Origin: Candidatus Eiseniibacteriota bacterium
GTDB taxonomy: Bacteria; Eisenbacteria; RBG-16-71-46
Assembly: GCA_016178725.1 (NCBI GenBank)
Contig: JACOSV010000028.1
Span: 1 to 64,000 of the forward strand
Reading direction: 5' to 3'
Length of the DNA stretch: 64,000 nucleotides
A program made the position numbers and the translations under genes. Shown one piece after another: positions 20,947 through 27,820 of the stretch. Position 1 is the first letter of the stretch. The number at the start of each line of letters is the position of its first letter. The notes below the pieces were generated by a model. That model saw only the letters and a list, made by a program, of their open reading frames with translations, ran no database searches and had not been told where the DNA came from.

Positions 20947-22245
20947 TCACGCGAGGGTCAACGCGTCCGCGCCGGCGTCGTAGTCGAACAGGCCGCCGAA
21001 CTGTCCCCATTCGATCAGCGTCTCGAAGAGCCGGACCTGGTTTTCGCTCGGCAGCGCGAGCGCCAGCACCTCGAGCACGAAGTCCCGGTCCACCTCCCGC
21101 CGCGGTTGGCGCTCGATCACCTCGCGCAGCCGGCGGAATAGGGCGAGCTTGAGCAGCTCCTCGCGCCACAGGCTCTGGCGGTCGGGAAGCGCGGCGGCGA
21201 GGAAACGCCGGCCGAGCGGCGTGAGCGTGACCGCGCGCCGCGGCGTGTCCACGAAGTCGAGCATCTCGGCCGCCTTGGTCACCGTGATCACGCGGCCGAA
21301 GTCGCGGCTCGTCTCGGCGACGATGTGGAAGAGGTCGTCGGTGCCGCCGCGGGCGTCGAGGTACTCGAGGAGCCCGACGATCTCGGTCGGCCGGCTGTCG
21401 GGCAGCAGCTCGATCACCGCCGGCGCCGGCGTCGCCGGCTCCTGGACGTCGGGCAGCTCGCTGCCGGTGATGATCTCGTGCAGCTCGTCCACCAGCCGCT
21501 CGATCTCGGGCGCGCGGTAGTCGCGCGGGCGCGGCACGCGGTTGTCGATGATCGTGCGCACGCGGCCCGGCGTCGCGCTCAACACGACGATCCGGTCGGC
21601 CATGTACGCGACCTCCTTGATGTCGTGGCTGACCATGACGATCGAGGACGGATTGCGGTCGTGCGTCGCCCAGATGTCGAGCACCTCGGCGCGAAGGCTC
21701 TCGGCCGTGAGCGCGTCCACCTGGCTGAAGGGCTCGTCCATGAACAGGATCTCGGGCTCGACCGACAGCGCGCGCGCGAGGCCGACGCGCTGCTTCATGC
21801 CCCCCGAGAGCTCGCGCGGGTAGGCGTCCTCGAACCCCGCGAGGCCGACCGAGCGCAGCACCTCGCCGGCGCGGCATTCGATCTCGCCGGGCGCGAGGCC
21901 GCGGGCGCGGAGCACGGTGCGCACGTTCTCGGCGGCGGTCATCCACGGATAGAGGGCGAAGCTCTGGAAGACGATCGCGATGCCGGGATTGAGGCCGGCG
22001 AGCGGCAGGCCGTGGAAGCGCACCTCGCCCTCGCTCGGGCGGATCAGCCCGGCGAGGATGCGGAGCAGCGTGGACTTGCCGCAGCCAGAGGGCCCGAGCA
22101 ACGCGACGACCTCGCGCGGGCGAATCTCGAGATCGATCTTCTCGAGCACGCGCACGGGCGTCCCGTGCGGCGGATGGAACGTCTGGCCGACGCCCACCGC
22201 CTCGCACAGAGCTCCGGCGGCCGTCGCCGGCGGCGTCGCGCTCAT
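20947..22245 (-). CDS. ABC transporter ATP-binding protein with AAA-associated C-terminal domain
   Basis: 432 residues. The ATPase has Walker A GPSGCGKST (51-59), Q-loop in FQSFALYP, signature LSGGMKQ (146-152) and Walker B ILFMDEP with catalytic Glu171. It is closest to nitrate/sulfonate/taurine importers. Residues about 265-432 add a second domain (VGLLEYLDARGGTDDLFHIVAE, GRVITVTKAAEMLDFVDTPRRAV), the AAA-associated domain seen on some of these ATPases and presumed regulatory. The permease gene ends in the 19-base gap upstream, so the two form one transport unit. No substrate-binding protein is encoded nearby. Confidence 0.9.
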   Translation of the reverse strand: MSATPPATAAGALCEAVGVGQTFHPPHGTPVRVLEKIDLEIRPREVVALLGPSGCGKSTLLRILAGLIRPSEGEVRFHGLPLAGLNPGIAIVFQSFALYPWMTAAENVRTVLRARGLAPGEIECRAGEVLRSVGLAGFEDAYPRELSGGMKQRVGLARALSVEPEILFMDEPFSQVDALTAESLRAEVLDIWATHDRNPSSIVMVSHDIKEVAYMADRIVVLSATPGRVRTIIDNRVPRPRDYRAPEIERLVDELHEIITGSELPDVQEPATPAPAVIELLPDSRPTEIVGLLEYLDARGGTDDLFHIVAETSRDFGRVITVTKAAEMLDFVDTPRRAVTLTPLGRRFLAAALPDRQSLWREELLKLALFRRLREVIERQPRREVDRDFVLEVLALALPSENQVRLFETLIEWGQFGGLFDYDAGADALTLA

Positions 22246-22264
22246 CGCCGCTTCCCCACGTCCG

Positions 22265-24007
22265 TCATCGGGCCAACGCGAAGCGCTGCTCGGCGACGAA
22301 GTAGAGCCGCCGCCACAGCGTGCGGTTGAACAGCACCACGAGCGCCGACATGACGAGGACCCCGGCGGCGAGGTGCGCGAGATCGCCGTGCTCCGCGGCG
22401 AGGCTGATGCGCGAGCCGATTCCGGTCGCCGCGATCGTCCGGCCGTGGAAGCTCACGTACTCGGAGACGATGCTCGCGTTCCACGCGCCGCCGGCCGCGG
22501 TAACCCAGCCCGTGACGAGGTACGGGAACACGGCCGGCGCGTAGAGCCGCCGGAAGCGCTCGAACCGCGAGAGCCGGTAGGTCGCGGTCGCCTCGCGGAG
22601 ATCGGCGGGGATCGCCATGGTGCCGGCGATCACGTTGAAGAGGATGTACCACTGCGTGCCGAGCAGCATGAGCAGCACGCTGCCGGCGCCGAGCGGGACG
22701 CCGCTCGCGTGAAGTGCTGCGATCACGAGCGGGAACAGCATCGGCGCGGGGAACGACGCGGCGATCTGCGTCACCGGCTGGAGCACGCGCGAGAGCCGCG
22801 GCGAGAGGCCGATCGCGAGCCCGGCCGGGAGCGTCCACAGCGTGCCGATCACCGTCGCGGCGAGCACGCGCGCGAGTGTCAGCAGCGCGCCCGCGATCAT
22901 CCCCGCCCACTCGCCGATCGCGACCGGGCGCAGCAGCCACGCGAGCCGCCACGCTCCGATCGCGAGCCCGACGAGGAGCAGCGCGAACGCGATCTTCGCG
23001 ACGGTCTTGGACGCCGGCGCGCGCGCCGCGGCCGTCGCCGGCTCGGGCGCGGGTCGCGGGCCGCGCCCGAGCCCGTCGCGCGGCGTGCGCAGCCGGCCGC
23101 CGACCCACGCCAGCACGCGCGAGCGGCGCAGCCACGTCAGGAACCACGACGAGGCGACCTCGCTGCCCGCCGATTCCTCGACGCGGAACTTCTGCGACCA
23201 GACCACGACCGGGCGCCACAGCAGCTGATCGAGCAGGACGATCATCACGATCATCGCCACGACCGCCTGCAGCATCGCCTTCCCGTCACCACGCGCGACG
23301 GCGACGCTCATGTACGCGCCGATCCCCGGCAGGCGGAAGTCACGATTCCCGAGCACGAACGCTTCGGAGATCATGAGGAAGAACCACCCGCCCGCCATGC
23401 TCATCATGCTGTTCCACACCAGCCCCATCGTGGCGTGCGGCAGCTCGACCCAGCGCAGGCGCTGCCACGGCGAATATCGATACACGGTCGCGGCCTCGTC
23501 GAGATCGTGCGGCACCGAGCGCAGCGAATGGAAGTAGCTGAAGGTCATGTTCCACACCTGGCCGGTGAAGATCATGAGCACCGCGGCGAGCTCGAGACCG
23601 AGGTTGGTCGAAGGGAACGCCGCGACCAGCGTCAACACCAGCCCGGGCATGAACCCGAGCACCGGAATGCTCTGCAGGATGTCGAGCAATGGGATCAGCA
23701 GGCGCTCGGCCACGCGGTCCTTGGCCGCCCAGTAGCCGTAGACCAGCGTGAAGGCGAGCGAGAATCCGTAGGCGATCAGGCCGCGCGCGAGCGAGAACAG
23801 CGTGTAGCGCGGCAGTGCGCGCAGCGAGAGGTCGATGTCGACCGTCGGCCGCAGCTGCCCGGTCCATTCGTTCGCGATGCGATGCGCCGCGAACACGAGG
23901 CCGACGAGACCGGCCAGCACGAGCAGATCCACCGGGCTCCATCGCCGCGTCCGCGCGAGGGCGCCGTGCGCGCCGCCCCATGCCCGGGCAATGAACCGCG
24001 GAATCAT
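22265..24007 (-). CDS. ABC transporter permease with two fused permease domains
   Basis: 580 residues containing two BPD_transp_1 modules in tandem. The first has LLDILQSIPVLGFMPGLVL and the EAA loop YRYSPWQRLRWVELPHATMGL. The second has LQPVTQIAASFPAPMLFPLVI and the EAA loop YRLSRFERFRRLYAPAVFPYL. About 12 helices in all, with a Pro/Ala-rich linker near 300-335. The duplication means one polypeptide provides both membrane halves for the ATPase encoded next. This belongs to the nitrate/taurine/bicarbonate-type importers; the substrate is unassigned because the binding protein is absent. Confidence 0.9.
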   Translation of the reverse strand: MIPRFIARAWGGAHGALARTRRWSPVDLLVLAGLVGLVFAAHRIANEWTGQLRPTVDIDLSLRALPRYTLFSLARGLIAYGFSLAFTLVYGYWAAKDRVAERLLIPLLDILQSIPVLGFMPGLVLTLVAAFPSTNLGLELAAVLMIFTGQVWNMTFSYFHSLRSVPHDLDEAATVYRYSPWQRLRWVELPHATMGLVWNSMMSMAGGWFFLMISEAFVLGNRDFRLPGIGAYMSVAVARGDGKAMLQAVVAMIVMIVLLDQLLWRPVVVWSQKFRVEESAGSEVASSWFLTWLRRSRVLAWVGGRLRTPRDGLGRGPRPAPEPATAAARAPASKTVAKIAFALLLVGLAIGAWRLAWLLRPVAIGEWAGMIAGALLTLARVLAATVIGTLWTLPAGLAIGLSPRLSRVLQPVTQIAASFPAPMLFPLVIAALHASGVPLGAGSVLLMLLGTQWYILFNVIAGTMAIPADLREATATYRLSRFERFRRLYAPAVFPYLVTGWVTAAGGAWNASIVSEYVSFHGRTIAATGIGSRISLAAEHGDLAHLAAGVLVMSALVVLFNRTLWRRLYFVAEQRFALAR

Positions 24008-24883: not shown

Positions 24884-25813
24884 TCAGGCGATGCGGAACT
24901 CGACGTTCTGCTCGCGCAGGAACGCTTCGGCGCTCGGGCCCATGAGGCACGCGAGCGTCGCGAGCGTTCCCGCCTCGAGGCACGTCGCGGCGAGCACCGT
25001 CACCGACCGCGGCGCGCCCTCGACCGGCCAACCGGTCGAGGGATCGAGGATGTGGCCGAGCCGGCGGCCCCCGTGGCGCACGAAGCGACGCGCGTCGCCG
25101 CTCGTGGCGAGCGCGCCGCGCGTGAGCTCGATCCTGTAGAGGGCCGCCGTTCCGGTGCGTTCGGGATCGTCCACGCCGACGATCCACGGGCGGCCGCCGC
25201 GGCGCGGGCCGCTCGCGATCAGATCGCCGCCGAAGTTGACGAGGAACGCCGAGCGGACGCGCGCCGCGGCCTCGCCGGCGGCCCGATCGACGGCGTACTC
25301 CTTGCCGATGCCGCCGAGATCGATCTCCATGCCCTCGGGCATCGTGAGCACCGGCGGCCGCCACGAGACGCGCCGCCATCCGACCCGCGCGAGCGCATGC
25401 CGCAGCGACGCGGCGTCGGGCACGCGATCGCCGCCGTCGAACGTCCACACCCGGCGCAGCGCGCCGGACGTGACGTCGAACCGGCCGTCCGATTCGGTCC
25501 AGCACCGGGCAGCATAGTCGAGCAGCCCCGCCGTTTCCGCGTCGACCTCGACCGGGCGGCCGCACGCGTGCTGAATGCGGTGGACGATGTTGTCGTCGCG
25601 GTAGCGGCTGAACTTCGCCTCGATCCGCAGCGCCTCGAGGCGGGCCGCGGAACAGGCGGCGAGCGCCTCGTCGCGATCGTCGCCGTCGACGAGCACCTCG
25701 CACGGGCTCGCCATCGCCGTGAAGCGGCCGATCCAGTAGTCGTCGACGCGCTCGAGCGCGGGCGCGTCCTCGTGCTCCGGCCGCGGCGGGCGCGCGGCGC
25801 GCGCCGGTGGCAT
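24884..25813 (-). CDS. apbE: FAD:protein FMN transferase (ApbE)
   Basis: 309 residues from the ATG at 25813, which shares a base with the DUF3570 stop (TGATG). MASPCEVLVDG, EAKFSRYRDDNIVHRIQ, RFDVTSGALRRVWTFD, EIDLGGIGKEYAVDRA, SAFLVNFGGDL and LGHILDPSTGWPV are the ApbE motifs, including the Mg/FAD site. The enzyme moves FMN from FAD onto a Thr or Ser of an extracytoplasmic protein. No strong signal peptide is visible, so the N-terminus could begin further upstream, or export may be atypical. It closes the TlpA-DUF4266-DUF3570-ApbE operon, in which DUF3570 is the likeliest partner. Confidence 0.9.
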   Translation of the reverse strand: MPPARAARPPRPEHEDAPALERVDDYWIGRFTAMASPCEVLVDGDDRDEALAACSAARLEALRIEAKFSRYRDDNIVHRIQHACGRPVEVDAETAGLLDYAARCWTESDGRFDVTSGALRRVWTFDGGDRVPDAASLRHALARVGWRRVSWRPPVLTMPEGMEIDLGGIGKEYAVDRAAGEAAARVRSAFLVNFGGDLIASGPRRGGRPWIVGVDDPERTGTAALYRIELTRGALATSGDARRFVRHGGRRLGHILDPSTGWPVEGAPRSVTVLAATCLEAGTLATLACLMGPSAEAFLREQNVEFRIA

Positions 25814-27072
25814 CAGAACCCGACCGAGTAGCCCGCGACCAGCGTGCCGATTTCGAGCGGCGGGAAGAGGTCCACCGGGGGACCGCTCTGGATCCCGCCG
25901 GCCGTGCCGACCCTTCCCCACTGATGGATCCACTCGGCACGCAGCGTGAAGCGGCCGGGCTGACTCGGGACGCGGAAGCCGACGGTCGCCCCGAGCGTCA
26001 CGCTGCGCAGCGGTCCGAGGCGCTGGTCGCTCGAGGCATAGGGTGGCAGGGGCTGATCGTCGCGGAGGCCGAACGTGAAAAGGTCGGCCGCCGACTGCGT
26101 GTAGAAGCGGACGTGGGGCTGGAGGAACGTCTCGGCCGGCAGCTCGATCCGGTAACGCGCGTCGGCCGTGTGTGAGCGCAGGCCCCAGTCGTCCCAATAG
26201 TAGCGGTACGTCAGGTAGAGGATGTCCTTCTCGAGGTGATAGACCGAGCTCCCGAGCAGGCTGCGCCGCACGCGCGTCGCCGGCCGCTTCTCGGTGACCG
26301 TGGCCACGGGGATACCCTCCTCGGAGGTGACGATGGTGACGATCTTGTAGGGCTCGGTCAGGTAGCCGCGCTCACGCGTGCGCGACGCGTCGAGCGACAC
26401 CATCCAGCGGCGTGTGAGGATGCGCGAGATGCCGACGGTCGCCGTCTCGACGCGCTTGGGCTGCACGTCGTACCGGACGACGCCGCGATCGATCGTGAGC
26501 CCCTCGGGCGTCCCGCCCACCGGGAACACGCCGTCGTCGTCGTAGCCCCCTCCCGCGCTCACGGTGACGAGGCGCTGGAAGAGATCGGCCGAGAGCCGGG
26601 CGGTGCCGCCGAGCGATCGGTAGTCCTTCTCGCGCGAAACGTGGGCGCCGGCCTCCGCACGGAGCAACCGCCCGAGCGGCGTCTGCAGCCCGAGGTCGAA
26701 CACGCCGCGCGCGTCCTTGAAGTGGGCGGTCGGGATCTCCGTGCCGGAGGTCGACGTCGAGCCCGACGCCGACGTCACGGTCTGCACCTGATTCGAGGCG
26801 CGCGCGCCGGTCGGCGTGGCGCCCGTCATCACGTCGAGGCCGAGCTCGGCCGAGAGGATCTGCCCGCCGCCGAACAGGTGCGTGAACCGCGCCGCCGGCT
26901 CGAGCACGTTGGTGCGCTTGTTCTCGCCGTAGAGGAGCGTCGAGGCCTCGAGCGTGTTCGCGGTGCTGTCCGGCGCCTGCGCGTGCGCCGCGCTCGAGGC
27001 GAGCAGCAGGCACGCCGCCGCGCCCAGCCGCGTCCGCAGCCGCGACCCGCGCGGCGCGGCCTCTAATTGCAC
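25813..27072 (-). CDS. DUF3570 outer-membrane beta-barrel-like protein
   Basis: 419 residues from a GTG at 27072, which has GGGGGGAGG six bases before it and overlaps the DUF4266 end by ten bases. A signal peptide (AAACLLLASSAAHA) is followed by alternating-hydrophobic strands with aromatic girdles (FTLRAEWIHQWGRV, ILYLTYRYYWDDWG, ATVGFRVP), ending in F, as expected of an outer-membrane barrel. Near residues 80-88 lies D-V-M-T-G-A-T-P-T, which resembles the D..TGAT.T motif flavinylated by ApbE in Rnf/Nqr subunits. The family is repeatedly found beside ApbE and DUF4266. That this Thr carries FMN is inference. Confidence 0.83.
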   Translation of the reverse strand: MQLEAAPRGSRLRTRLGAAACLLLASSAAHAQAPDSTANTLEASTLLYGENKRTNVLEPAARFTHLFGGGQILSAELGLDVMTGATPTGARASNQVQTVTSASGSTSTSGTEIPTAHFKDARGVFDLGLQTPLGRLLRAEAGAHVSREKDYRSLGGTARLSADLFQRLVTVSAGGGYDDDGVFPVGGTPEGLTIDRGVVRYDVQPKRVETATVGISRILTRRWMVSLDASRTRERGYLTEPYKIVTIVTSEEGIPVATVTEKRPATRVRRSLLGSSVYHLEKDILYLTYRYYWDDWGLRSHTADARYRIELPAETFLQPHVRFYTQSAADLFTFGLRDDQPLPPYASSDQRLGPLRSVTLGATVGFRVPSQPGRFTLRAEWIHQWGRVGTAGGIQSGPPVDLFPPLEIGTLVAGYSVGF

Positions 27073-27296
27073 CCGCAGCCTCCCCCCGCGATCCCCGAGC
27101 CGCCGGTCGAGCCTTCCTTGCTGAAGTAGACGTGGTCGTCGATCGCGCGTTCCATCGGGATCGGGATGAAGCTCATCTGCTTCTGCGCCATGAGGTCGCG
27201 ATCCCACGGCTTGATCGTTGCCGCGCAGCCGCCGGTGAGCGCTGCAAGCGCCGCGAGCAGGACCGCGGCCCGGATACCCCGCACGAACGCCCTCAT
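27063..27296 (-). CDS. DUF4266 small lipoprotein
   Basis: 77 residues. The lipobox LTGGC gives a lipidated Cys at residue 24, after a short hydrophobic signal. VKPWDRDLMAQKQM-like text (here IKPWDRDLMAQKQMSF), DDHVYFSKEGSTGGSGIAGGGCGCN is the DUF4266 signature, with a Gly-rich tail ending in a C-x-C pair. It is too short to be catalytic; it may be a scaffold or an electron or thiol relay beside the barrel. Its ATG overlaps the stop of the TlpA-like gene (ATGA), and DUF3570 begins within its last codons. All three are therefore translationally coupled. Confidence 0.87.
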   Translation of the reverse strand: MRAFVRGIRAAVLLAALAALTGGCAATIKPWDRDLMAQKQMSFIPIPMERAIDDHVYFSKEGSTGGSGIAGGGCGCN

Positions 27297-27820
27297 CGCG
27301 CGCACGCTCCGGCGATCAGGCTCTCGGCGGCCGCGGCCTTGCGCGGATCGAAGCCGGCGTGCGTCGAGACGATGACGCCGGAGCGGTCGATGAGGAAGCT
27401 GGTCGGCATCACGCTCACCTTGTACGCGTCCGCGGCCTCGCCCGCGGGGTCGAAGGCGATCTCGAACGGCGCCTCGAAGCGATCGAGAAACGCCGTCGCG
27501 GCGGCGGGTTCCTTGTCGAGGTTGATCGCGACGACCGTGAACCCGCGCGGGCCGTAGCGCTCGCTCATCGCCTTCATCCAGGGAAACGACTTGCGGCACG
27601 GTTGGCACCACGACGCCCAGAAGTCCACCAGCACGACTCTGCCGCGCAGCGAATCGAGCGACGCGGTGCCGTGGCGGGACGGCAGCGAGAAGCTCGGCGC
27701 GGGCCGGGGCTTTGGGTCGGCGGCACGCGCCGGCGCCGCGGTGGAGGCGAGGCCGGCGGCCACGACGATGATGGAGACGAGCCAGCGAAGCATCGGCGGC
27801 GCGAAGGACGTGCGTCTCAT
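27293..27820 (-). CDS. TlpA-like periplasmic thiol-disulfide protein
   Basis: 175 residues (start at 27820; an ATG at 27793 is also possible). A signal or anchor segment (WLVSIIVVAAGLASTAAPARA) is followed by a thioredoxin fold: APSFSLPSRHG, VVLVDFWASWCQPCRKSFPWM with active CxxC at 72-75, FTVVAINLDKE and the cis-Pro strand VMPTSFLIDRSG. It reduces disulfides or haem-type thiols in the periplasm. It heads the operon with DUF4266, DUF3570 and ApbE and may keep the C-x-C of DUF4266 reduced, which is inference. Confidence 0.9.
   Translation of the reverse strand: MRRTSFAPPMLRWLVSIIVVAAGLASTAAPARAADPKPRPAPSFSLPSRHGTASLDSLRGRVVLVDFWASWCQPCRKSFPWMKAMSERYGPRGFTVVAINLDKEPAAATAFLDRFEAPFEIAFDPAGEAADAYKVSVMPTSFLIDRSGVIVSTHAGFDPRKAAAAESLIAGACAR

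Follow-up and report, generated by a model that had tools for sequence, protein, structure and literature searches.

Where in the cell, and at which stage of export, could a flavin be attached to a beta-barrel protein of the outer membrane? The question is raised by four genes on the minus strand of a 64,000-nucleotide stretch of DNA from a Candidatus Eiseniibacteriota bacterium (the window, taken at its full length). Here a DUF3570 protein is encoded next to an ApbE, and the new part is that this neighbouring ApbE seems not to leave the cell interior, whereas the protein it would modify is a barrel of the outer membrane. Flavinylation of DUF3570 at [ST]GA[ST] is already published and is not new here. 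In the passages drawn on here, Meheust et al. (2021, eLife 10:e66878, PMC8238504) described clusters of DUF3570, ApbE, DUF4266 and a thioredoxin-like protein, identified two [ST]GA[ST] motifs conserved in DUF3570, and found that co-expression with the cognate ApbE in E. coli leads to flavinylation of the Chlorobium luteolum DUF3570, both Ser-to-Ala changes being required to abolish the modification. The same passages make no mention of the absence of an ApbE signal peptide, of an Asp-to-Gly change or of the position of the site in the barrel. Beyond that paper, no naming of DUF3570 or DUF4266 was found in the literature searched.

The gene cluster

The features referred to below are the following.
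27293-27820, minus strand: TlpA-like thioredoxin-fold protein (WCQPC), exported; Pfam Redoxin, 1.2e-23
27063-27296, minus strand: DUF4266, small and lipoprotein-like, C-terminal GGGCGCN; PF14086, 9.1e-20
25813-27072, minus strand: precursor of the DUF3570 outer-membrane barrel, 419 aa; PF12094, E=1.3e-76
26815-26835, minus strand: flavinylation site 1, D49-V-M-T-G-A-T55 (mature numbering), from conservation and the proven site in the C. luteolum homologue
26764-26784, minus strand: second-site position, degenerate Q66-T-V-T-S-A-S72, from alignment with QTFTGASG (L028) and the [ST]GAS second sites of Chlorobium
26185-26208, minus strand: conserved YRYYWDDW (mature 258-265) where strands 11/12 end on the outer side, with hardly any variation among 52 homologues
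24884-25813, minus strand: ApbE of a lineage without signal peptide (AMASPCE...EAGTLAT); PF02424, 2.3e-66
24968-24970, minus strand: codon of ApbE Gly282, replacing the conserved Asp (V. cholerae Asp285), from alignment to solved ApbEs and relatives

The genes follow one another as TlpA-like (27820-27293), DUF4266 (27296-27063), DUF3570 (27072-25813) and apbE (25813-24884). The start codon of the TlpA-like gene is a matter of choice (MRRTSF...), and its stop overlaps the DUF4266 start as ATGA; the GTG start of the DUF3570 gene overlaps the DUF4266 stop as GTGCAATTAG, and the DUF3570 stop and the apbE start share TGATG. These overlaps point to translational coupling of the four genes. All four families score well over their Pfam cut-offs (258.6 bits for DUF3570, whose cut-off is 25; 224.5 bits for ApbE; E=1e-23 for Redoxin/AhpC-TSA in the TlpA-like protein), and with the overlapping junctions these matches bear out the operon proposed in the initial annotation.

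ApbE, DUF3570, a thioredoxin-like protein and DUF4266 make up the composition of a DsbD-type flavinylation cluster, and the window cluster shares these four gene families, site 1 and the CxC tail of DUF4266 with the clusters of Meheust et al. It differs in that its DUF3570 has one canonical site, where that of C. luteolum has two, and, unlike the DsbD-type clusters, in the absence of DsbD, the only DsbD_TM match of the genome being on another contig (C17); 316 clusters without DsbD are also listed in the passages of PMC8238504 drawn on here.

The window genome (89% completeness) has two copies each of ApbE, DUF3570 and DUF4266; at that completeness, a search of it for FMN_bind proteins gave none. 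Its second DUF3570/DUF4266/TlpA/ApbE cluster, with CxxCH-containing proteins in between, lies on contig C72 (L104, 7864-14367); there the ApbE bears the canonical Asp as well as a clear signal peptide, and the DUF3570 has DAITTASRP at the site, which is kept in relatives from the same phylum. Downstream of the window cluster lies a two-gene NitT/TauT-like ABC transporter (permease and ATPase, 20947-24007, judged from the translations only), with a DUF2461 gene on the opposite strand in between.

The flavinylation site and its modelled place in the barrel

D-V-M-T-G-A-T-P-T, which the initial annotation had singled out, is indeed read at 26835-26809 (minus strand) inside the DUF3570 gene. DVMTGAT fits the ApbE target motif D-x-x-[ST]-G-A-[ST] (PMC12052999), and the flavinylation site that was then marked as inferred has been demonstrated experimentally for the C. 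luteolum homologue (PMC8238504, as drawn on here). FMN is predicted to be attached at T55 (nt 26817-26815). Shuffled DUF3570 yields D..[ST]GA[ST] with a probability of 0.006 (0.6% of trials), DVMTGAT is the sole such heptapeptide in the 74,593 residues of the window's open frames of at least 150 aa, and by these sequence statistics the motif is not a chance occurrence; the DNA pattern taken genome-wide, with 67 matches versus 29 for the reversed control, is not informative alone.

Conservation of the motif, which had been suggested as a check, extends across the family, with the strict form in most homologues. The Asp of site 1 is invariant (52/52 aligned DUF3570 homologues), the strict form [DE]..[ST]G[ASP][ST] occurs in 44 of the 52, and the motif is common to the DUF3570s of Eisenbacteria, gammaproteobacteria and Chlorobiia. 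Among the other eight, L051 does have D-S-L-T-G-A-T, one has TASTGAT and six carry [ST]AA[ST]/[ST]SA[ST], a sibling form ([ST][AST]A[ST] at site 1, e.g. DVISAASM, DAITTASRP) found in Calditrichota, Latescibacterota and Bacteroidota relatives and also in the contig C72 cluster. The family's usual second site, missed earlier, is degenerate in the window. Chlorobiia DUF3570s have two canonical sites, whereas in the window protein, as in most gammaproteobacterial relatives, site 1 is retained and the second place has QTxT[STG][AP]SG; the window reads QTVTSASG, and QTVTSAS departs from [ST]GA[ST]. Weak flavinylation may nevertheless occur there, by analogy with Klebsiella fumarate reductase, in which changing the motif Gly to Ala leaves about half of the flavinylation and removing the Asp has little effect (PMC12052999).

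PF12094 is the only Pfam match of the window DUF3570, and PF04205 (FMN_bind) was not matched; the NqrC/RnfG FMN_bind proteins resemble DUF3570 in the D..[ST]GA[ST] acceptor motif and in attachment by ApbE, but belong to another fold and family. The signal peptide spans roughly the first 31 residues (Q1 of the mature protein at nt 26979), and Cys is absent from the mature chain, so the only redox centre there would be FMN. AlphaFold2 folds the mature chain into a 16-strand barrel (pLDDT 92.4, pTM 0.88) with the even strand number, the alternation of lipid- and lumen-facing residues and the C-terminal Phe (ends SVGF) of outer-membrane beta-barrels. The model of a two-site Chlorobium homologue is the same barrel, with site 1 ending strand 3 and site 2 in the next loop, and the two models support the outer-membrane barrel that had been proposed as well as the outer position of the site.

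In such barrels, as a rule, both termini are periplasmic, the long loops lie outside and the C-terminal Phe is an assembly signal. Strand 3 of the window model comprises residues 41-56, with D49-T55 at its end, and is followed by a loop (57-83) containing the second site; the topology rules support placing the end of the modelled strand that bears T55 on the extracellular side. Even residues of strand 3 face the lipid (mean hydropathy 1.50 vs -0.50), so D49 and T55 would face the lumen. This facing, deduced from strand parity and topology rules, answers the earlier suggestion that a predicted structure be used to find the side on which the Thr lies. Of the positions that 85% or more of the homologues conserve, 32 in all, 31 fall in the outer half of the barrel, where 62% would be expected (p ~ 1e-5); conserved positions include S115, E117, D119, Y120, D149, K175, G205 and R236, and further Y260-W265, T271, R291, Q295 and D318. 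A sequence search of solved structures with DUF3570 gave no match, and Foldseek comparison of the model with the PDB and viral models returned generic barrels only, with no specific relative: the OprD/Occ, FadL, OmpG and AlgE channels have a similar barrel fold (E ~ 1e-9) but differ from DUF3570 (TM ~ 0.43, 7-11% identity) and are without a covalent cofactor site.

The ApbE partner

The initial annotation identified ApbE as the partner but overlooked both its missing signal peptide and its catalytic Asp-to-Gly change. Characterised ApbEs are mostly periplasmic (PMC12052999). The window ApbE lacks the N-terminal signal peptide of a periplasmic lipoprotein ApbE, and its N-terminus, MPPARAARPPRPEHEDAPALERVDDYWIGRFTAMASPCE, has no hydrophobic segment there or upstream. 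The conserved Ser and His are present (ALATSGD, GHILDP). Gly282 stands here in place of V. cholerae Asp285. No more than three active-site residues, this Asp included, are described as conserved throughout the ApbEs (PMC12052999), and the replacement is clade-wide, mostly in E/Q-A-G-x-L-[AS]-T, with Ser and His retained.

Among loci and genomes that are largely metagenome bins, and scored by hydropathy and in-frame stops (a 12-residue Kyte-Doolittle window with a threshold of 1.9, not a trained predictor such as SignalP; row L053, whose frame overlaps DUF3570, set by hand), a signal-peptide-like segment was seen in 0/62 Gly-type and 28/38 Asp-type ApbEs from DUF3570 clusters. An in-frame stop lies at most 34 residues from the conserved core in 37 of the 62 Gly-type enzymes (at most 25 in 19), so that hardly any space, if any, remains for a signal peptide. 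In the tree the signal-less Gly-type ApbEs form one clade (66 rows, all without signal, support 98/93). A separate Bacteroidota group (L082, L085, L086, L090, L091, L073) consists of DUF3570-linked ApbEs that lack a signal peptide and keep the Asp. Chemical covariation of the substrate-motif Gly with the ApbE Asp/Gly was dropped as a candidate, since the tabulated association runs along two lineages, so that shared ancestry confounds it.

In a survey of 185 gammaproteobacterial genomes, scores separate the Gly-type ApbE from other ApbEs, with 24 genomes at or above 164.9 bits and the following one at 123.5, and a motif-type DUF3570, counted by hand from the scores, is present in 23. Both occur together in 22 genomes, with one and two genomes having one of the pair alone (Fisher p ~ 3e-25, ignoring shared ancestry), and in three of the 22 (G248, G114, G117) the two genes are not adjacent and lie on different contigs. 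Signal-less Gly-type ApbEs at L202 (G167) and L217 (G145) come from genomes in which a motif-type DUF3570 was not found, and may have another substrate there. Beside motif-type clusters, thioredoxin-like proteins (matches in 14 members of a neighbour set drawn from 18 related loci) and two-component systems are the only recurrent families among those listed; metal transporters or cytochromes were not recurrent among the 25 families listed.

Proposed flavin attachment before export

We propose that the co-translated ApbE would attach FMN covalently to T55 of DUF3570 on the unfolded precursor in the cytosol, and that Sec would then export the flavinylated chain and BAM assemble it, placing the flavin in a conserved pocket on the cell-surface side. 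Once the barrel has folded, T55 would face the lumen at the outer end of its strand, beyond the reach of a periplasmic ApbE, and modification would therefore have to precede folding. Since the window ApbE has no export signal, attachment is most likely cytosolic; a dedicated enzyme without a signal would act most simply in the cytosol, where FAD is at hand. The proposal further requires SecYEG, whose pore size was reportedly studied by Bonardi et al. in 2011, to let a chain with FMN attached pass, and this demand weighs against it. Recombinant C. luteolum DUF3570 was found mostly in the pellet of lysed cells, yet flavinylated (PMC8238504, as drawn on here), so a non-native chain is probably an ApbE substrate, and this result is consistent with the proposed mechanism.

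Electrons would probably be fed to the flavin by thiol partners, the TlpA-like protein and the CxC tail of DUF4266. CxC ends 175 of 175 homologous DUF4266 frames, and the tail reads GGGC[GA]CN almost without exception in the window (27063-27083) and in these frames; judged by its residues, it resembles a flexible arm that carries thiols or binds metal. A hybrid thioredoxin/flavin system is itself a published proposal (PMC8238504, same passages). From gene content, the CxC tail and that proposal we infer a flow from the thiols of the TlpA-like protein and DUF4266 to FMN and outward, with the flavin handing electrons to an acceptor at or beyond the outer membrane; the barrel could then be the electron route out of the cell that was first suggested. 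Direction and acceptor, like the cytosolic timing and the thiol partner, are put forward as parts of this model. We consider it fairly probable that a cytosolic ApbE loads T55 of the precursor, followed by Sec, BAM and electron transfer at the outer surface. That the enzymes doing so before Sec are a lineage without the catalytic Asp, and that the result is a heme-free, exterior-facing flavin redox port at the surface, seems to us evenly balanced.

Attachment could instead take place in the periplasm, if unfolded DUF3570 were flavinylated there by the contig C72 ApbE, or by the window ApbE exported in some unusual manner, and the signal-less ApbE served a cytosolic substrate. The ApbE of contig C72, with its clear signal peptide, could modify DUF3570 in the periplasm before folding, as would suit the location of most characterised ApbEs (PMC12052999), and Klebsiella pneumoniae provides the precedent of a cytoplasmic ApbE without signal peptide, although its substrate is a soluble fumarate reductase (PMC12052999) and that proposed for the window ApbE an exported barrel. 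The genomes G145 and G167, each with a signal-less ApbE and no motif-type DUF3570 found, are a further counterpoint to cytosolic loading of DUF3570. We nevertheless hold the periplasmic explanation to be unlikely, because DUF3570 and the signal-less ApbE are translated together and accompany each other from genome to genome, unlinked cases included, and because no FMN_bind protein was found in the window genome at its 89% completeness. Far less probable still is that the window ApbE, with Gly for an Asp conserved across ApbEs (PMC12052999), is inactive as a transferase or only hydrolyses FAD, the TGAT motif being a structural relic: the Gly is fixed in a clade whose partners retain the motif, and two of the triad residues, Ser and His, are still present. 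Moreover, the sampled Chlorobiia ApbEs beside motif-type DUF3570 are all Gly-type where the residue is readable, and the tested active pair comes from Chlorobium (PMC8238504, as drawn on here); judged from these Chlorobiia relatives, the C. luteolum ApbE is presumably Gly-type as well.

A different doubt, about function alone, leaves cytosolic attachment untouched: the flavin barrel might work in reverse or in assimilation, reducing iron or copper for uptake or acting as a thiol oxidase in oxidative folding. The VIT1 iron transporter included in 25 DUF3570 clusters (PMC8238504, same passages) and the strictly conserved CxC tail of DUF4266 speak for such a role, which we regard as possible but doubtful given that no recurrent metal transporter appears among the top neighbour families listed for the sampled clusters.

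Covalent flavinylation of exported proteins is described in the literature drawn on here as an extracytosolic event that needs FAD there. If the Gly-type lineage flavinylates in the cytosol, as we favour, FAD outside the cytosol would no longer be needed, and it would be evident that a chain with FMN attached can cross Sec and BAM. The Gly-for-Asp ApbE offers a testable variant for flavin tagging and for enzymology, and, if the proposal is true, these bacteria would carry a covalent flavin close to the cell surface without cytochromes.
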